This document shows, piece after piece, positions 19,309-36,442 of a stretch of 57,112 nucleotides of DNA. The notes below the pieces were generated by a model. That model was not told the origin of the DNA. It saw only the letters and a list, made by a program, of their open reading frames with translations, and ran no database searches. Both the position numbers and the translations under genes were made by a program. The DNA comes from an uncultured Lachnospiraceae bacterium (GTDB lineage Bacteria; Bacillota; Clostridia; Lachnospirales; Lachnospiraceae): NCBI GenBank assembly GCA_944384125.1, contig CALWSF010000022.1, forward strand, positions 1-57,112, given 5' to 3'. The first letter of the stretch is position 1. The number at the start of each line of letters is the position of its first letter.

Positions 19309-20586
19309 ATGTATCGAGAGCGTTTGGAGCGGGTACGGATCTGTGAGACATCAGAGATGCAGAACGGTTACCTTCGTGTGGATGTAGTAAACAGTGAGAA
19401 CAATTTTCCCATAACGGATGCACAGGTTTCTATTTTTTATCCGGGAGATGAGAAACCCAAGGAGGTTCAGAAGACGGATCGCTCCGGTCAGACGGAGGAA
19501 ATTGCTGTAAGTGCGCCGCCGGCTGCGCTGAGTCTGGAGAAACAGAATACCATTCGTCCGTATGCGGAATATACAGTGCAGGTTCAGGCTCCCGGATTTG
19601 AGACAGCGACTGTAAAAGGCGCAGAGGTTCTTGCGGGCGTTACTGCTATTCAGCCCATCCGACTGATTCCCCTGAGCGAGGATCAGGGAAGAAGAGATGT
19701 TATTACAATTCCGGAGCATACACTGTATGGTTCTTATCCTCCGAAAATTGCGGAAGATGAGGTAAAGCCTGTAAATGAAAGCGGGGAGATTGTTTTAAGC
19801 AGAGTGGTTGTTCCGCAGACAATCATAGTGCATGACGGTGTCCCGACAGACGCATCGGCCAAGGATTACTATGTTCCGTACCGGGATTATATTAAAAATG
19901 TAGCATCCAGTGAGATCTATGCCACGTGGCCTCAGGCAACAATTGTGGCGAATGTTCTGGCCATTATGTCATTTACTCTCAATCGCGTCTATACAGAATG
20001 GTACCGCAATCAGGGGTATGATTTTACAATCACATCGTCCACTGCCTTTGATCACAAATGGATTTACGGACGTGATATTTTCGAACCCATCTCTGCTGTT
20101 GTGGATGATATTTTTGACAGTTATCTTTCAAGACCGGGAGTGCGCCAGCCGATTCTGACGCAGTACTGTGACGGAAAAAGGGTAAGCTGTCCGGGGTGGA
20201 TGACTCAGTGGGGATCCTGTGAGCTGGGAGAGCAGGGTTACAGTCCCTTAGAAATTCTCCGTGATTTTTACGGGAGCAGTATTTATGTCAATACAGCCGA
20301 AATGATATCAGGGATTCCCATCTCTTTCCCGGGGGAACCGCTCACAAAGGGGATGAGCGGGGAGAAGGTTCTCCATATGCAGGAACAGCTGAATGCCATT
20401 GCATCAGTATATTCGGCGATTCCCGAGATTGTCCCGGACGGAATCTACGGGCCTGCCACAGCCGAGGCTGTGCGGGTTTTTCAGTCTGTATTCGGTCTGC
20501 CGCAGACGGGTGTGACAGATTTTGCAACATGGTATAAAATTTCTCATGTTTATGTGGGAATTTCAAGGATTGCAGAACTCGTATAA
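19309..20586 (+). CDS. peptidoglycan-binding protein with SpoIID-like middle domain
   Basis: A 425-residue protein in three parts. Residues about 18-125 look like a carboxypeptidase-regulatory-like beta-sandwich (LRVDVVNSENNFPITDAQV). Residues about 185-330 resemble SpoIID/LytB (YVPYRDYIKNVASSEIYATWP, then AFDHKWIYGRDIFEPI). The C-terminus is a PG_binding_1 domain (LTKGMSGEKVLHMQEQLN, PDGIYGPATAEAVRVFQ). No signal peptide is evident, so it may act inside the developing spore or leave by another route. A spore-cortex or wall-remodelling role is inferred. A -10-like TATAAT lies near 19268. It is a single gene followed by a MATE gene. Confidence 0.75.
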   Translation: MYRERLERVRICETSEMQNGYLRVDVVNSENNFPITDAQVSIFYPGDEKPKEVQKTDRSGQTEEIAVSAPPAALSLEKQNTIRPYAEYTVQVQAPGFETATVKGAEVLAGVTAIQPIRLIPLSEDQGRRDVITIPEHTLYGSYPPKIAEDEVKPVNESGEIVLSRVVVPQTIIVHDGVPTDASAKDYYVPYRDYIKNVASSEIYATWPQATIVANVLAIMSFTLNRVYTEWYRNQGYDFTITSSTAFDHKWIYGRDIFEPISAVVDDIFDSYLSRPGVRQPILTQYCDGKRVSCPGWMTQWGSCELGEQGYSPLEILRDFYGSSIYVNTAEMISGIPISFPGEPLTKGMSGEKVLHMQEQLNAIASVYSAIPEIVPDGIYGPATAEAVRVFQSVFGLPQTGVTDFATWYKISHVYVGISRIAELV

Positions 20587-23205: not shown

Positions 23206-25095
23206 ATGATAGAACACAATAAAGAACTGTATAAAAAAGGCGGGTGCGGCCATGAGAAAAGACGTGCCCGGTTTGCGGGAATGACAGGACGTGCGGCTGC
23301 GGGACTTCTGACGATGTCTCTTTTCTTCCAGCCGGTTTCTGTCCTGGCAGGTCCGGCTTCTGATACATCCGGAGCAGGCAGCACCACATCCGGGCCGGGA
23401 GGCTCAGGCACCGTTTCCACAGGCAGTCCCTCCGGCGGCAGCACTGCAGCTGGAAGCAGTGTGAGCGGCGTGACATCAGGGCTTGGCACATACACTCCTA
23501 CTGAGGAGGCCGGGATCGGTGCGATTGCCAGAGGAATAGACGTTTCCTACTGGCAGCAGAGCATTGACTGGAACCAGGTGGCTTCGGATAATGTCCAGTT
23601 TGTTATGCTTGCCACCCGTTTCCGCGGGAATGTGGATCCCTATTTTTCTGCAAACGCAAATGGTGCCAGCCAGATGGGGCTCCGTCTGGGAGCGTATATA
23701 TACTCTTATGCCACGTCTGTGGAAATGGTGCAGCAGGAAGCTGATTTTGTGCTGAATCTGATAAAGGATTACCCGATTTCTTTTCCGGTGGTTTTTGATG
23801 CGGAGGATGCAAATTCTCTTGGAACCCTGTCTCCGTCAGAGGTCAGCGATGTTATCAATGCGTTCTGCCAGAGAATACAGGAGGCGGGATATTATCCCAT
23901 GGTTTATGCCAATGAGTATTGGCTCAGCAATAAAATTGACATGTCAAAGATCAATTATGACATATGGGTGGCACGTTATGGAGAAAAATATACATATTCC
24001 AATCCGGCCATGTGGCAGGCGAGCAATACGGGCTCTGTAAAGGGAATAAGCGGAAATGTGGATATTGATTATCTGTACAGAGACTTTACACAGATTATAC
24101 CCGGAAATGTCTGGAGGACAATAGGAGGAAACCGCTACTATTATCAGAATCATGTTATGCAGAAATCCACCTGGATAAATGACGGACAGAACTGGTATTA
24201 CATGAACAGTGCAGGCAATCCGTCAATCGGCTGGCTTGATATGAACGGTTTCCGTTATTACCTGGATTCAGACGGAAAGATGGTAACCGGATGGAAGGAG
24301 CTGGATGGAAGCTGGAGATACTTTGATCCCACAGGAGAGATGGCAACCGGCTGGAGGGCTGTTGGCGGTATCTGGTATTATATGAATGAAAGCGGCCAGA
24401 TGCAGACGGGCTGGCTCGATGCAGGCGGGAAAAAATATTATCTGGCGGGCGATGGAGCCATGCAGACAGGTTTTCAGGATCTGGGTGGAAGCAGGTATTA
24501 TTTTGATGCTTCAGGCGCCATGGCGACGGGCTGGCAGGCAATAAACGGCGTGTGGTATTATATGAATGAGAGTGGCCAGATGCAGACGGGCTGGCTTGAA
24601 GCGGGAGGAAAGAAATATTATCTTGCAAGTGACGGGGTAATGCAGACCGGACTTCAGGATCTGAGCGGAAGCAAATATTATTTTGACGCTTCAGGCGCCA
24701 TGACAACAGGGTGGCAGGCAATAAACGGCGCCTGGTGCTATATGAATGAAAGCGGCCAGATGCAGACAGGGTGGCAGGCAGTAAATGGTGTCTGGTATTA
24801 TATGAATGAAAATGGCCAGATGCAGACGGGCTGGCAGAATATCGGAGGAAACTGGTATTATCTCGGAAGCGACGGCGCCATGCAGACAGGTTTAAGGGAG
24901 ATAAATGGTGTGAACTATTATCTGGATCCGTCAAGTGGAGTTATGGCGGCGGGGACGCAGATCCTTGTGGACGGCGTGCTTTATCAGGCAGGAGCAGACG
25001 GAAGCTGCATACCTGTGACAGCTGATGCCCAGCCTCAGTCAGAAGGCGCGCAGGAGACAGAATCCGTTGGGCCTTCCGGTCCTGCCGGTGTGTAA
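23206..25095 (+). CDS. secreted GH25 lysozyme with cell-wall-binding repeats
   Basis: A 629-residue secreted muramidase. A long signal peptide with a basic start and hydrophobic core ends near AGPAS (about residue 49). A Ser/Gly/Thr linker follows, then a GH25 domain (about 105-300): GIDVSYWQ, FPVVFDAEDANSLG with the catalytic Asp/Glu pair, YANEYWL, and DIDYLYRDF. From about residue 305 there are some fifteen 20-residue aromatic repeats (GWQAINGVWYYMNESGQMQT type) that bind choline or wall polymers. It cleaves peptidoglycan outside the cell. AGGAGG precedes the ATG. The short C-terminal tail after the repeats is Pro/Gly-rich. Confidence 0.93.
   Translation: MIEHNKELYKKGGCGHEKRRARFAGMTGRAAAGLLTMSLFFQPVSVLAGPASDTSGAGSTTSGPGGSGTVSTGSPSGGSTAAGSSVSGVTSGLGTYTPTEEAGIGAIARGIDVSYWQQSIDWNQVASDNVQFVMLATRFRGNVDPYFSANANGASQMGLRLGAYIYSYATSVEMVQQEADFVLNLIKDYPISFPVVFDAEDANSLGTLSPSEVSDVINAFCQRIQEAGYYPMVYANEYWLSNKIDMSKINYDIWVARYGEKYTYSNPAMWQASNTGSVKGISGNVDIDYLYRDFTQIIPGNVWRTIGGNRYYYQNHVMQKSTWINDGQNWYYMNSAGNPSIGWLDMNGFRYYLDSDGKMVTGWKELDGSWRYFDPTGEMATGWRAVGGIWYYMNESGQMQTGWLDAGGKKYYLAGDGAMQTGFQDLGGSRYYFDASGAMATGWQAINGVWYYMNESGQMQTGWLEAGGKKYYLASDGVMQTGLQDLSGSKYYFDASGAMTTGWQAINGAWCYMNESGQMQTGWQAVNGVWYYMNENGQMQTGWQNIGGNWYYLGSDGAMQTGLREINGVNYYLDPSSGVMAAGTQILVDGVLYQAGADGSCIPVTADAQPQSEGAQETESVGPSGPAGV
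24361..24900 (+). repeat. tandem repeats encoding cell-wall-binding modules
   Basis: Units of about 60 bp form higher-order units of 180 bp. The block beginning at about 24370 and the block at about 24550 encode nearly the same 60 residues (YYMNESGQMQTGWL, KYYLA, DASGAM), with few changes. Further copies of GGCCAGATGCAGAC recur downstream. This suggests recent duplication or gene conversion within the lysozyme gene. Confidence 0.85.
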
Positions 25096-31523: not shown

Positions 31524-31578
31524 ACTGAGGGCATTATCCATCTGCGAAGTATCAGATGGGTAATGTCCTCAGTTTTTT
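31524..31578 (+). terminator. strong terminator of the decarboxylase operon
   Basis: A 21-bp stem with two G-U pairs (31524-31544 with 31553-31573) and an 8-base loop, followed by Ts to 31578. Confidence 0.92.
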
Positions 31579-31854: not shown

Positions 31855-31884
31855 TTGACATATAATGGTAGTTTTCATTATAAT
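31855..31884 (+). promoter_or_regulatory. promoter of the glucosaminidase-cohesin operon
   Basis: A perfect TTGACA (31855-31860), an 18-base spacer and a perfect TATAAT (31879-31884), with a leader of about 43 bases to the start codon. Confidence 0.88.
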
Positions 31885-31933: not shown

Positions 31934-34249
31934 ATGAAAAAGAAATATGGAATGAGAGTGATGGCACTGCTGCTTGGCTGTATTCTGGCGGTCAGTCCGT
32001 GTATGGCGGGCGGCCGTCCTCTTTTTGGTATAATCAGCCAGGCTGAGGAGCGTACTGCGTATGTAAATGCCACCAGTCTGAATGTGAGAAGCGGACCGGG
32101 GACATCTTATCAGGCGATAGCAAAACTGTCTCAGGGTACGTCTGTCACAATAATCGGCGAGCAGACGGGGACAGACGGAGTTCTGTGGTATCAGATTCGT
32201 TTTACCGGGAGCGGAGAACTGACCGGGTATGTGTCAAGTCAGTATATTAAGTTCCCGTCAGCCACAGTATCGGACAGTGATTTTGAAGCATATATGAACA
32301 GTCAGGGATTTCCGGAGAGCTACAAGCAGAGCCTCCGCGAGTTGCATGCCCAGTACCCCAACTGGACATTTACAGCTTTTCATACCAATCTGGACTGGAA
32401 TACGGCTGTGCAGAATGAGAGTGTGATTGGCCGGAATCTTGTCAGCCGTGACAGCATCTCGTCCTGGAAATCCACAGCAGACGGTGCATATGACTGGGAT
32501 ACGGGAGTGTGGCCGGGATTTGACGGAAATTCATGGGTTCAGGCTTCGGAAGATATCATCCGTTACTATATGGATCCGCGGAATTTCCTGAATGACAGTT
32601 ACATATATCAGTTTATGAAACAGTCCTACAACAGCTCCATTCATACGCGGGAAGGGCTGGAGAGCATGGTCAGCGGGACTTTTCTTGCCGGTACGGCATC
32701 TGCAGGCAGTTCATCCGGTGCATCAGGTTCCGGCGGTACATCGTCGCCTTCCGGTTCATCGGGCGGTGCTACGGGTCCCGGTGCGGAGATCAGTTCGGGA
32801 GGAGATACATCCGGCATTATTTCTCCAATTGCATCGATCAGTGATCACGAGACGGACAGAGTTGCGACAGCATATGGCCCGGGGATGAGCGGCGATGGCT
32901 TTTCTTCAGGAGGCAGCAGCCAGAATTCAGGCAGTAGCACAACAACGGCTCCCCTGTCCGGCAGTACTTCCTATGTGGATATAATAATGAATGCAGCGGA
33001 GCAGTCCGGTGTAAATCCCTATATTCTTGCATCCATGATCCTGCAGGAGCAGGGAAGCCAGGGAACGGGCAGAAGTATTTCCGGAACTGTTTCCGGATAC
33101 CAGGGGTATTATAACTTCTTTAATATTGAAGCATATCAGTCCGGCTCCATGGGAGCGGTGGAGAGGGGGTTATGGTGGGCTTCACAGTCCGGCAGCTATC
33201 TCCGTCCGTGGAACAGTGTGGAGAAATCCATTACAGGCGGCGCCATGTATTATGGCGACAATTATGTAAAAAAAGGACAGGATACACTTTATCTGAAAAA
33301 ATTCAATGTGCAGGGAGATAATCTTTATAAACATCAGTATATGACAAATGTCCTTGCAGCGGCAGCAGAGGGCTTGTCCCTGGCAAAGATTACAGCTCTG
33401 AAGACTGCAGCTCTTGAGTTTTCAATTCCTGTATACCTGAATATGCCGGAGACTGCATGTGCAAAACCGACACTGGATGGAAGCCCCAATAACAAGCTTT
33501 CCAGTCTGGGAGTGGATGGATTTGCTCTTACACCTACATTTAACCGGGATACAGAGTCTTACGATCTTATTGTGGATCCGTCTGTGACGAGTGTGACAGT
33601 GGCGGCATCCGCTATTGATTCAAAGGCGGCTGTAAGCGGAACCGGCACAGTAGATCTGCAGAGCGGCATTAATGATATTACAATATCTGTAAAAGCCGAG
33701 AATGGAACAGTTCGAAATTATGTTCTGCATGTGGTTCGCCAGGCGGGAGGACCTGTATATTCGTCTGGTATTACAAGCGGCGTTTCTTCCGGTTCTTCCT
33801 CAGGCCCGGGCTCAGATGTTGAAATTATCGGACCGTCTTCCTCATCGGGATCATCTTCGGGTTCTTCCGGAACGGGCAGCAGCGGAAGCGGATCAGGGCA
33901 GTCAGCTCCCGGAGTGGGAGTCAGCGGATTTGGAAATGAGAGCAGCGGGGGCCTGGTTGGGCCCGGGGCATCAGGAGTGGTGCAGGGGCCCACATCTTCC
34001 GATACGCCCGGTTCGGATGTGAATGCAGCGCAGACGGGAACACCTCCTTCTTCCGTCAGAGGAGACACTAACGGAGATGGCCGTTTGAATATAATGGATG
34101 TTCTTAATGCCCAGCGCTATATTCTGGGGCTGGGAGAACTGAATGCGGCGGGGGTATCTGCTGCAGACGTGAACGGAAACGGCAAGGTTGACATCATGGA
34201 TATTCTTATGATGCAGAAGGATATTCTGGGAATTGAAAAATTGAATTAG
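31934..34249 (+). CDS. secreted glucosaminidase with SH3b, cadherin-like and dockerin domains
   Basis: A 771-residue secreted wall hydrolase. The signal peptide (about 1-36) is followed by a bacterial SH3 domain (about 40-107, NATSLNVRSGPGTSYQAIAK) and an endo-beta-N-acetylglucosaminidase region (about 115-510). Its catalytic Glu lies in ILASMILQEQGSQG (about 365-378), and a Ser/Gly-rich insertion (about 252-342) splits it. A cadherin-like beta-sandwich follows (about 521-610, LSSLGVDGFALTPTF), then a Ser/Gly/Pro linker and a type I dockerin (about 708-771) with two calcium loops, DTNGDGRLNIMD and DVNGNGKVDIMD. It should cut peptidoglycan glycan strands. The dockerin predicts docking onto a cohesin, and the next gene, 12 bases downstream, encodes one. 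Confidence 0.9.
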   Translation: MKKKYGMRVMALLLGCILAVSPCMAGGRPLFGIISQAEERTAYVNATSLNVRSGPGTSYQAIAKLSQGTSVTIIGEQTGTDGVLWYQIRFTGSGELTGYVSSQYIKFPSATVSDSDFEAYMNSQGFPESYKQSLRELHAQYPNWTFTAFHTNLDWNTAVQNESVIGRNLVSRDSISSWKSTADGAYDWDTGVWPGFDGNSWVQASEDIIRYYMDPRNFLNDSYIYQFMKQSYNSSIHTREGLESMVSGTFLAGTASAGSSSGASGSGGTSSPSGSSGGATGPGAEISSGGDTSGIISPIASISDHETDRVATAYGPGMSGDGFSSGGSSQNSGSSTTTAPLSGSTSYVDIIMNAAEQSGVNPYILASMILQEQGSQGTGRSISGTVSGYQGYYNFFNIEAYQSGSMGAVERGLWWASQSGSYLRPWNSVEKSITGGAMYYGDNYVKKGQDTLYLKKFNVQGDNLYKHQYMTNVLAAAAEGLSLAKITALKTAALEFSIPVYLNMPETACAKPTLDGSPNNKLSSLGVDGFALTPTFNRDTESYDLIVDPSVTSVTVAASAIDSKAAVSGTGTVDLQSGINDITISVKAENGTVRNYVLHVVRQAGGPVYSSGITSGVSSGSSSGPGSDVEIIGPSSSSGSSSGSSGTGSSGSGSGQSAPGVGVSGFGNESSGGLVGPGASGVVQGPTSSDTPGSDVNAAQTGTPPSSVRGDTNGDGRLNIMDVLNAQRYILGLGELNAAGVSAADVNGNGKVDIMDILMMQKDILGIEKLN

Positions 34250-34261
34250 GCGGGGAAAGGT

Positions 34262-36442
34262 ATGAACAGAAAAATAAAAATGGCGGCGGCAGCCTTTTTT
34301 GCCGCTCTGGCGCTGTCAGCAGTATCGCCTGTCGGGGTTATCAAAGCTTTTGCGGCAAGTGCAAGAATTGCTTTTTCTGATCCAAGTGCGACAGTGGGGC
34401 AGGAGTTTAATGTCACAGTAAAGATCTCGTCCCAGGACGGGAATCTGGGTGCATCTGATGTAATGCTGTCGTATGATCCGTCAGTCATAGAGTTTGTCAG
34501 CGGGAATAATGCCAGCGGCGGCGCGGGGGCAGTTCGTCTTGTGGGAACCATGGATTCCAGTACTACAAAGGAATTTTCCTACACTTTGAAATTTAAGGCG
34601 CTCCAGGCCGGCAATACGGCAATCTCAGTGGGCAGCTATGAGGTGTATGATGTGGATGCTCAGGCGGTTGACGTGTCAAAAGTCGGTTCATCTGCAGTAA
34701 AAGTCAATGCGCCTGCAACATATTCCAGTGATGCATCGCTTTCGTCGCTGAAGGTTTCACCCGGTCAGCTGTCTCCGGCATTTTCATCAGGTGTGACATC
34801 TTATACAGTTCAGGTGGGGGCTGATGTGGACAAGCTTGCTGTCAGCGCAAACGCAAGTGACAGTAAGGCCAAGGTTGTGGTCAGCGGAAACTCCGATCTG
34901 AAAACAGGCTCAAACACAGTTGTGTGTAAAGTGACAGCCGAGGACGGGCAGACAACAAAAAGCTACACGATAACGGTAACCAAGCTGGAAGCGGGAGAGA
35001 CTGCGGCTGAGTCTGATGCTTCTCCGGAGAGCATGCAGGAGGCTGTTTTGGGGGATCAGACCGTTGATGTGGACGGGGTAACCTATACTGTTGCCGCTTC
35101 TTTTGATCCGGCGCTGCTTCCAGAAGGATATACATCATCGACCTGTACCTATGGCGGATCAGAGGTCATGTGCGGTACAGGGAATGATCTGACACTTCTG
35201 TATCTTCAGAGCGGGGATGGGACAGGTTCATTTTTCATTTATGTTCCCTCATCAGGAGCACTGTCTCCTTATGTTACGATTGACGTGACAGCAAAATCTA
35301 TCCTGGTTCTTCCTCCCGATGACAGTGTGGAGATACCGGAAGGATTTGCTGCAACTACCATACAGCTCAATGGAAATTATAAAGTTCAGGGATGGGTATG
35401 GCAGAGTGATGAAGAGCAGAGATACTGCATTGTATACGGAATGAATGAAAATGGCGAGAAAGGACTGTACCGGTATGATATCGGCGAAAAAACTTTCCAG
35501 CGCTATTTTGAGGATCCGGCACTGCAGAGCAAATATGATGATGCAAAAGTGGAGGAGCTGTATAATACATACAACGAACTGTGCAGAGATTACAATATCC
35601 GTCTCATCATCATCATAGCTCTGGTGGTAGTATGCCTTCTTCTGTTCTTTATTGTGCTCAATCTGCTGCTTCGCCGCCGTGAGATAAGAGAAAACAGAAG
35701 TATGTCCTCACAGAACAGAGAGGCGATGACGCCGGTTAAACGCCGGGAGATGGAGCAGAAAAAGAAGTCAGAAGCTCCCGTCAGAGTGGCTGACACATAC
35801 CGTGATTCAGAACGGCATAAGGAGGCGGTTCAGACTTCTCCTGCCAGAAGAGCGGCGCAGGAGTCGAGGCCGCGGCAGCAGGAGGCCGCGCGCAGAAATA
35901 TGCCGGCGCGAAGAGAAGATACGATGCGGGAACGCGGATATGAGAGACGCCAGCCTTCGGCCCGTTCGCAGAAGGACTTGAGGCGTCGGGATGCGGCACC
36001 GCATAACAGGTCAGAAGTTTCGCCAAGAACGCAGGATAGAGCATATCATACGCCCGGTTACGGAGAGGCTGTAAGAACTGAGACGGAATATCGCCGTCCA
36101 TCCGAATATGGCAATACCCGGGAATATGAATACAGAACCGGGGGACGTGCAAATGCACAGACAGACAAGGCTTACAAAAAGCCGGGAAGCAGTCGATATG
36201 AATACGGTTCCGGATCCGACAGTTATACGGAACGCGAGTACCGCAGAGCCTATGATGCAGGAATGGAAGAGGCAATCAGACAGCGGGAGATGGAGCGGGC
36301 TCATCGTGCCAGAATGGCAAGAGAGCGTCTGGAGCGGGAGCGCAGAGAAGATGAGCGGCGGGCCCGGATGGAATCGGCAGCCGGTGTAAGCCGCCGGAAC
36401 ACGGATGCTGATGATGATTTTGAGGTTCTGGATTTAAACTGA
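34262..36442 (+). CDS. membrane-anchored cohesin-domain protein
   Basis: A 726-residue protein. The signal peptide (about 1-31) is followed by a cohesin-like domain (about 33-150: ARIAFSDPSATVGQEFNVTV, DVMLSYDPSVIEFVS, FKALQAGNTAISV) and a cadherin-like domain (about 159-240) like that of the preceding protein. Next come an unassigned extracellular region, one TM helix (about 446-468) and a 258-residue cytoplasmic tail that is very rich in Arg, Glu and Tyr and probably disordered, ending DDDFEVLDLN. It is read as a surface receptor displaying a cohesin for the dockerin of the upstream hydrolase, with the tail linking to something inside the cell. The partner and function are inferred from domains and adjacency. 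Confidence 0.85.
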   Translation: MNRKIKMAAAAFFAALALSAVSPVGVIKAFAASARIAFSDPSATVGQEFNVTVKISSQDGNLGASDVMLSYDPSVIEFVSGNNASGGAGAVRLVGTMDSSTTKEFSYTLKFKALQAGNTAISVGSYEVYDVDAQAVDVSKVGSSAVKVNAPATYSSDASLSSLKVSPGQLSPAFSSGVTSYTVQVGADVDKLAVSANASDSKAKVVVSGNSDLKTGSNTVVCKVTAEDGQTTKSYTITVTKLEAGETAAESDASPESMQEAVLGDQTVDVDGVTYTVAASFDPALLPEGYTSSTCTYGGSEVMCGTGNDLTLLYLQSGDGTGSFFIYVPSSGALSPYVTIDVTAKSILVLPPDDSVEIPEGFAATTIQLNGNYKVQGWVWQSDEEQRYCIVYGMNENGEKGLYRYDIGEKTFQRYFEDPALQSKYDDAKVEELYNTYNELCRDYNIRLIIIIALVVVCLLLFFIVLNLLLRRREIRENRSMSSQNREAMTPVKRREMEQKKKSEAPVRVADTYRDSERHKEAVQTSPARRAAQESRPRQQEAARRNMPARREDTMRERGYERRQPSARSQKDLRRRDAAPHNRSEVSPRTQDRAYHTPGYGEAVRTETEYRRPSEYGNTREYEYRTGGRANAQTDKAYKKPGSSRYEYGSGSDSYTEREYRRAYDAGMEEAIRQREMERAHRARMARERLERERREDERRARMESAAGVSRRNTDADDDFEVLDLN

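Follow-up and report, generated by a model that had tools for sequence, protein, structure and literature searches.

Introduction

Cohesins and dockerins that do not belong to cellulosomes have been catalogued, mostly without an assigned function. Among the described systems that come closest to the one treated here, SagB–SpdC of Staphylococcus aureus is characterised as a factor that frees newly made peptidoglycan from the anchor holding it in the membrane (PMC12272431). In Christensenellales of the cockroach gut, some dockerin genes carry the assignment K06381 (stage II sporulation protein) and are listed among cellulosome components (PMC10266427). The present study concerns two adjacent genes in a stretch of 57,112 nucleotides from an uncultured Lachnospiraceae bacterium (contig CALWSF010000022.1 of assembly GCA_944384125.1), the whole of which is referred to as the window. 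The product of the first is an exported glucosaminidase that resembles SagB and ends in a dockerin, and that of the second is a single-pass membrane protein with a cohesin. Judged from their sequences, the two are likely to constitute a dedicated pair, in which the membrane protein docks the wall hydrolase at the membrane by the interaction of its cohesin with the dockerin of the enzyme. A preliminary description of the window had proposed such a dedicated pair holding a hydrolase at the membrane, and the proposal is supported by the conserved adjacency of both genes, by a dockerin that is usually the sole one found in its genome and by the presence of dockerins on three kinds of client enzyme.

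Results

Domain organisation of the two proteins

Both genes are complete open reading frames on the plus strand, as are the features within them and the sites preceding them that are given below, with the enzyme (P0001, 771 residues) encoded at 31934..34249 and the membrane protein (P0002, 726 residues) at 34262..36442. These coordinates and the gap of 12 bases between the genes had been reported exactly.

The enzyme starts with a signal peptide, which is followed by an SH3_3 domain (residues 48-106, 32075..32251; Pfam, E 1.8e-15), a two-part glucosaminidase region, a cadherin-like domain of the family PF12733 (residues 522-603, 33497..33742; Pfam, E 3.9e-10), a linker rich in serine and glycine and a type I dockerin. 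The core of the glucosaminidase region (residues 347-484, 32972..33385) matches the SagB model NF052642 (E 2.5e-12) and two autolysins of known structure in the PDB (E 3.2e-9 and 3.1e-8). Since the match to the SagB model, at 46.6 bits, does not reach the curated cut-off of 425 bits, the protein is on sequence grounds classified as SagB-like and not as SagB. Its Glu 372 (33047-33049) aligns with a glutamate of Autolysin E in the structure 4pi7 that is replaced by alanine in 4pi8, and the equivalent position is occupied by glutamate in 72 of 74 aligned enzyme rows, the remaining two of which are gapped and belong to SpoIID-type proteins. We take this residue to be catalytic, as in enzymes of the AtlE type, and assume that the enzyme belongs to family GH73. 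The dockerin (residues 710-765, 34061..34228) consists of two calcium-loop/helix repeats, whose loops DTNGDGRLNIMD and DVNGNGKVDIMD are both present, and it matches Dockerin_1 (PF00404) with 43.3 bits in a protein search (E 4.4e-11, cut-off 22.9 bits) and with 48.2 bits in a genome search, which bears out its earlier description as the two-loop end of a secreted glucosaminidase. Besides the signal peptide, no anchor is evident on the enzyme or its relatives, with a late transmembrane segment absent from 75 of 75 enzymes and a lipobox pattern found in 2 of the 75.

In the membrane protein, a signal peptide precedes a cohesin (residues 30-152, 34349..34717), a cadherin-like domain (residues 160-241, 34739..34984; Pfam, E 9.3e-13), a conserved membrane-proximal domain (MPD; residues 262-431, 35045..35554), one transmembrane helix at about residues 448-466 (35603..35659), predicted in a simple hydropathy scan with a mean hydropathy of 3.8, and a charged tail that ends in DDDFEVLDLN. 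Pfam, profile and hydropathy searches agree with the preliminary description as far as the signal peptide, the cohesin-like and cadherin-like domains, the helix and the tail are concerned, to which we add the MPD in front of the helix, a conserved motif at the cytoplasmic C-terminus and a perfect -35/-10 promoter upstream of the pair. The signal peptides of both proteins were called from hydropathy and by eye instead of with a dedicated predictor. A Pfam scan of the membrane protein revealed no carbohydrate-binding module, signalling domain or domain of the CAAX-protease type, and a comparison of the MPD with the PDB gave no convincing match by sequence or by fold, the latter based on a weak model with a predicted local distance difference test score (pLDDT) of 55 and a predicted template modelling score (pTM) of 0.47.

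We regard the assignment of the N-terminal domain as a cohesin as safe. In a six-frame search of its own genome, PF00963 detects the domain with 30.9 bits (E 6.4e-7, cut-off 24.1 bits), and when 38 homologous domains are combined into a profile, it retrieves 32 PDB sequences at E <=0.01, the best being 3l8q (E 4.3e-11), nearly all of which are chains of scaffoldins, cohesins, cellulosomes or NagJ. A set of 19 domains from a branch of homologues encoded next to LytR-CpsA-Psr (LCP) ligases, described below, mostly yields cohesins too, with weaker matches (22 sequences at E <=0.1). The domain might at the outset have turned out not to be a cohesin, and the matches of both the profile and a weak structural model are cohesins. 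Another cohesin might have served as receptor of the dockerin, and the same six-frame PF00963 search of the genome, which is 94% complete, found no second one besides that of the membrane protein.

Conservation of the gene pair

The adjacency of both genes across Lachnospiraceae, which had been suggested as a check of the pairing, was investigated in a sample of 200 genomes of the family. Among these, 138 match the membrane protein, some through its cadherin-like domain only, and 103 match the enzyme (E <=1e-10), with cohesins detected in 94 genomes (E <=0.01) and dockerins in 75 (E <=0.001). One locus each from 80 of the 138 genomes, picked mostly but not strictly in the order of the match list, was combined with the window and with L005, the one relative from a collection of named genomes, to a set of 82 loci, and a search of viral contigs found no relatives. 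The next upstream gene of the membrane protein encodes a glucosaminidase at 59 of the 82 loci and an LCP ligase at 13, with another gene or none at the remaining 10. A dockerin is present in 34 of the 59 glucosaminidases and absent from 25. The membrane protein contains a cohesin in 34/34 pairs with dockerin, 25/25 without, 13/13 LCP pairs and 8/10 of the rest. The profiles for dockerin, cohesin, LCP, cadherin-like and glucosaminidase domains were built partly from the same loci, and their seed rows therefore match by construction; L100, L109-L111, L116, L121, L124, L129 and L131-L133 were not part of the cohesin seed.

Most genomes that encode such a pair contain few other modules of either kind. 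In the 32 sampled family genomes to which 32 of the 34 dockerin-bearing pairs belong, exactly one dockerin match (E <=0.001) was found in 29, with more in G130 (3), G051 (5) and G015 (2), and this sole dockerin resides in the enzyme of the pair in 23 cases, has no listed position in 5 and is located elsewhere in G125. Similarly, PF00963 (E <=0.01) matches once in 26 of the 32 genomes, 25 times in the pair and in G129 elsewhere, with no match in 4 and more than one in 2.

Beyond the family, the combination of a glucosaminidase with dockerin and a neighbouring protein with cohesin and MPD is encountered in another six families of the class (L173-L177, L184 and L185). In samples of the class and the phylum, which were drawn separately from the 82 loci, the MPD profile matches 25 of 291 and 6 of 398 genomes, respectively, with 4 of these 6 belonging to the family itself. 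The 40 stretches that were fetched include L167, L178, L188, L192, L194, L195, L198, L202 and L207, which do not contain a clear pair of a wall enzyme and a cohesin-MPD protein. At L194 and L195, a protein of approximately 250 residues with a cohesin and a transmembrane segment is encoded beside a dockerin protein of 710-720 residues without recognised enzyme domain.

The tail of the membrane protein ends in a motif (DDFEVLDL, 36413..36435) that is common to its homologues, including those beside LCP ligases. Motifs of this type (such as DDDFEFIDLD) were found in 44 of the 82 homologues, comprising 13/13 of those paired with LCP ligases, 25/59 of those paired with glucosaminidases and 6/10 of the others. 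They are absent from all 360 further open reading frames of at least 250 residues that were listed mechanically for these loci, a set in which many entries are certainly not genuine genes. The corresponding DNA pattern occurs once in the genome of the window, in the gene of the membrane protein. This motif and the linker motif of the enzyme discussed below were defined only after the sequences had been viewed, and some comparisons of homologues, including those of the C-terminal ends in the LCP branch, used references from the minus strand that lack the first residue. The conserved end might constitute a docking peptide for a partner inside the cell.

Dockerins on unlike client enzymes

The strongest argument for a genuine docking function is provided by the presence of dockerins on unlike enzymes encoded beside cohesin-MPD proteins, since the membrane protein was the starting point of the search for these loci, so that the dockerin on its neighbours had not been selected for. 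At L122, the client is a glucosaminidase of the family PF01832, whose likeness to the enzyme of the window in BLAST is confined to the dockerin. At L168, L169 and L171, which belong to one family, and at L196 from another family of the phylum, it is a SpoIID-type protein with an SH3 domain and a dockerin. With SpoIID presumably acting as lytic transglycosylase, all dockerin-bearing clients next to cohesin-MPD proteins are predicted to be enzymes that act on the glycan strands of peptidoglycan. The four SpoIID loci each contain two genes for cohesin-MPD proteins, the first of which adjoins the SpoIID-dockerin gene, and the second at L196 crosses the end of the contig into L197.

In a table of 75 pairs, dockerin and cohesin are found together in 46, the cohesin alone in 24, neither in 5 and the dockerin alone in 0, the latter count being in part a consequence of selection, because the membrane protein or its MPD had led to these loci and because L110 and L122 were left out. 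Two loci outside of this table, L217 and L190, are exceptions.

Evidence against an exclusive cohesin–dockerin contact

Several observations weigh against the proposed pairing. With respect to the modules themselves, the cohesin was missing from the matches at E <=1 when the whole membrane protein was scanned with hmmscan, and the dockerin of the enzyme is one of two matches above the cut-off in its genome. The second, L002 (G000:C120), scores 26.8 bits in one search and 21.4, below the cut-off, in another; it might belong to a further client docking to this cohesin. This borderline dockerin is situated at the end of a protein that is incompletely assembled and matches no other Pfam family. 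Also, no usable interface was obtained for the two domains. As both genes of the window share one frame, dockerin, linker and cohesin could be combined in a single chain (P0003) by reading the stop codon between the genes as glutamine, whose template-free model shows 9 strands at a mean pLDDT of 52 and a pTM of 0.40. In a Foldseek search with this weak model, the top nine matches all come from chains that contain a cohesin (E 9.5e-4 to 4.3e-3, with low TM-scores) and a dockerin appears at rank 23.

With respect to adjacency, 20 further loci selected by their enzyme contain a cohesin in the next downstream gene in 10 cases (L210, L211, L213-L215, L221, L222, L224, L226 and L227) and none in 9 (L208, L209, L212, L217-L220, L223 and L225), while the contig ends in one (L216). 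Two of these 20 enzymes carry a dockerin, at L211 beside a cohesin-MPD gene and at L217 (G157:C33) at the C-terminus of a glucosaminidase that no cohesin gene adjoins and whose genome yields 19 dockerin matches. Adjacency is thus common but not universal for this type of enzyme, and enzymes without such a neighbour can still bear a dockerin. A further dockerin-bearing enzyme, at L190, has a neighbour with a weak match to the MPD and none to a cohesin.

In 25 of 59 glucosaminidase pairs, the cohesin is kept without a dockerin on the enzyme, and the cohesin–dockerin contact can thus not be the sole link within the family. No dockerin match at E <=0.001 was found in 17 of the 25 respective genomes, nor in any of the 13 with an LCP pair, where these absences hold at the sensitivity of a search that also missed the dockerin of L088. 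In this LCP branch (L108, L112, L114, L118, L123, L125, L126, L130, L135, L138, L139, L141 and L142), the homologue directly follows the gene of the ligase, and it combines cohesin, MPD, transmembrane helix and an acidic tail with the same C-terminal end, without a cadherin-like domain. In a mirror-tree test of 45 pairs, dockerin and cohesin show a weak co-divergence (partial correlation 0.174, a value reached in 6 of 1000 shuffles), which does not exceed that between dockerin and MPD (0.273) or between the cadherin-like domain of the enzyme and the cohesin (0.228). This result is significant, but being weak and not specific for the two modules, it does not serve as main support.

A possible second contact between the partners

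The same observations bear on an alternative, in which the membrane protein and its relatives are general partners of wall enzymes and contact is made by the cadherin-like domains, by the linker motif or by the MPD, with the dockerin as optional reinforcement that comes and goes. This alternative, which we regard as unlikely, accounts for the cohesins in pairs without dockerin and draws on the distribution of the cadherin-like domain, which is found in both partners of 53 of the 59 glucosaminidase pairs, in one only of 4 and in neither of 2, and which is absent from both partners in 13/13 LCP pairs. The divergence of the two cadherin-like domains is correlated (partial correlation 0.288, with 4 of 1000 shuffles as high), and at five f45 loci (L179-L183, fetched from 7 matched genomes) MPD and cadherin-like domain are kept in the absence of both dockerin and cohesin, perhaps as a consequence of one event in a single genus. 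It also draws on the short motif that is conserved within the otherwise variable linker of the enzyme (GSDVEII at 33809..33829 in the window). Motifs of this kind (SNVTIVP, SDVEIIGP and similar), which are kept irrespective of a following dockerin and are located near the very C-terminus where none follows, were found in 12 of 18 tails (window 33809-33829, L005, L069, L070, L072, L073, L078-L080, L092, L124 and L166), compared with a mean of 0.14 and a maximum of 3 of 18 in 5000 shuffles. Conversely, the presence of dockerins on three kinds of enzyme beside relatives of the membrane protein would not be expected if the dockerin were meaningless, and the joint presence of the cadherin-like domains follows the family tree to some degree and does thus not constitute independent evidence. 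The data suggest that the cadherin-like domains form a contact that is independent of the dockerin.

The history of the dockerin is reflected in the trees of both proteins. In that of the MPD, the clade of 13 containing the window is a mixture of 5 pairs with and 8 without dockerin (98% support in the Shimodaira–Hasegawa-like approximate likelihood ratio test, SH-aLRT), and in that of the glucosaminidases (72 rows), the scattered presence of dockerins requires 9 changes. At L166, the linker motif SNVTIA is followed by an extension that contains the dockerin, and the closely related proteins at L070 and L072 end shortly after the motif. Repeated gain of the dockerin was discarded as strong support, since a single origin within the clade was not rejected in the approximately unbiased test (p-AU 0.84 with six rows and 0.896 with five).

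Transcription unit and surroundings

The pair is preceded by a stem-loop resembling an intrinsic terminator (31525..31572), with a stem of 20 pairs followed by TTTTTT, which separates it from the upstream gene, and by a promoter-like site of the sigma-70 type (31855..31884) with 12 of 12 consensus bases and a spacer of 18 bases, and it thus appears to form a transcription unit of its own. In a scan of the region, this site is the sole one with 12/12 consensus bases among 14 promoter-like sites (shuffled mean 6.4), the others having lower or equal scores, and 6 terminator-like sites were found compared with a shuffled mean of 3.9. The preliminary description had reported no genes for carbohydrate degradation nearby. 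Among 10 of the 40 open reading frames of at least 220 residues in the window that were inspected, this holds for enzymes acting on plant polysaccharides, of which there is none, but not for a GH25 lysozyme. The latter, which contains choline-binding repeats, is a separate wall hydrolase encoded at 23206-25095, about 7 kb upstream of the pair. A protein with a PG_binding_1 domain is encoded at 19309-20586.

Discussion

The organisation of the two proteins suggests a mechanism for the positioning of a wall hydrolase. The enzyme would be exported by the Sec route and its dockerin would plug into the cohesin of the membrane protein, presumably in a calcium-dependent manner. The latter would face outwards from the cytoplasmic membrane, mounted on its MPD and single transmembrane helix, with the cadherin-like domains of both partners probably forming a second contact. 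In this way, the enzyme would be kept near the membrane instead of diffusing off and may cut the glycan strands of nascent peptidoglycan or of the inner wall, while the tail of the membrane protein, with its conserved end, probably connects the complex with an intracellular factor. What underlies this proposal at the level of sequence are the domains of both proteins, the adjacency and conservation of their genes, the promoter-like site, the aligned glutamate, the lack of another recognisable anchor and the small number of other dockerins and cohesins. The membrane protein most likely acts as an adaptor that docks wall enzymes, in a role that would by analogy be comparable to that of SagB–SpdC. 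As the pair is found in many related bacteria, cohesins and dockerins probably also serve the upkeep of the bacterium's own wall.

Whether the same principle extends beyond the pair is a matter on which we are more reserved. It is a serious possibility, if somewhat short of probable, that Clostridia contain a general family of adaptors composed of cohesin, MPD, transmembrane helix and cytoplasmic end that station wall enzymes, with glucosaminidases and SpoIID-type proteins recruited via dockerins and the LCP ligases of the sister branch via a different contact. If so, cohesin–dockerin recognition would play a core role in the building of the own envelope.

Two other explanations appear less compatible with the data. 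In the first, which we consider very improbable, the pair would be a small extracellular digestion system, akin to a miniature cellulosome, directed against other bacteria, food or host glycans. Cohesins and dockerins are after all cellulosome parts, some genomes of the family contain up to 29 dockerin matches, and the dockerin-bearing glucosaminidase at L217, without cohesin neighbour, is encoded in a dockerin-rich genome. Such a system is difficult to reconcile with the single dockerin match in 29 of 32 genomes containing a pair, with classes of enzymes next to the cohesin-MPD protein that act on the glycan of peptidoglycan and with the location of the cohesin on a transmembrane protein that has a conserved cytoplasmic end and in which no carbohydrate-binding module was found. 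The second, to which we assign the smallest chance of all, views the membrane protein mainly as a sensor that passes the occupancy by dockerins or the state of the wall through the membrane to its tail to regulate wall growth, as might be suggested by the long charged tail, by an end motif present in 44 of 82 homologues and in none of 360 other reading frames and by its recurrence beside LCP ligases, but it finds little backing in a protein where Pfam reveals no signalling domain, in homologues with almost no tail (L109-L111, L121, L131 and L132) and in a motif that was defined in hindsight.

Collectively, the docking of the hydrolase by the membrane protein offers a candidate function for non-cellulosomal cohesins and dockerins in Lachnospiraceae and other Clostridia, namely to keep enzymes that cut peptidoglycan in place at the membrane. 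Genomes with one cohesin, one dockerin and no scaffold would thereby be accounted for and would no longer be scored as containing parts of a cellulosome. Such a function would also provide an entry to the question of how these bacteria control the site at which glycan strands are cut, with the MPD and the cytoplasmic end as new handles on wall growth. A search of the open PubMed Central (PMC) literature on cohesin or dockerin, outside of which most subscription papers lie, found no description of the pair among the papers listed.

The relation to known systems can be summarised as follows. With SagB–SpdC, where SpdC is also named LyrA, the pair shares a SagB-related glucosaminidase, the wall glycan as substrate and the probable retention by a membrane protein (PMC12272431). 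Both partners differ, however, since the enzyme matches the SagB model weakly (46.6 compared with 425 bits), and since SpdC is described there as an integral membrane protein of the CAAX-protease family (PMC12272431), whereas the protein encoded in the window has one transmembrane helix besides its signal peptide, combines cohesin, cadherin-like domain and MPD and lacks a CAAX-protease domain in Pfam, and is thus not a partner of the SpdC type. With cellulosomes, amylosomes and mucinolysomes, it has cohesin and dockerin modules resembling type I in common (PMC5817068, PMC5814915, PMC12997984). Instead of several cohesins and several dockerin-bearing polysaccharide enzymes, the 94% complete genome of the window yields one cohesin match and two dockerin matches above the cut-off, and the pair is distinguished by one cohesin, usually one dockerin, a peptidoglycan enzyme as client and a transmembrane anchor with a cytoplasmic end. 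The cohesins of Clostridium perfringens, some of which (2jh2, 2o4e and 2w1n) were retrieved in the profile and fold searches, are likewise found outside of a cellulosome; there, the cohesin is, according to the PDB titles, part of a glycoside hydrolase itself, whereas here it resides on a membrane protein beside a wall hydrolase. The dockerin genes assigned to K06381 in Christensenellales fit the SpoIID-dockerin proteins that we find beside cohesin-MPD proteins, although the section listing them describes no neighbouring membrane protein with a cohesin (PMC10266427). Cohesin–dockerin pairs outside of cellulosomes are already known in kind, and it is the breadth of their occurrence and the classes of their clients that are surprising.

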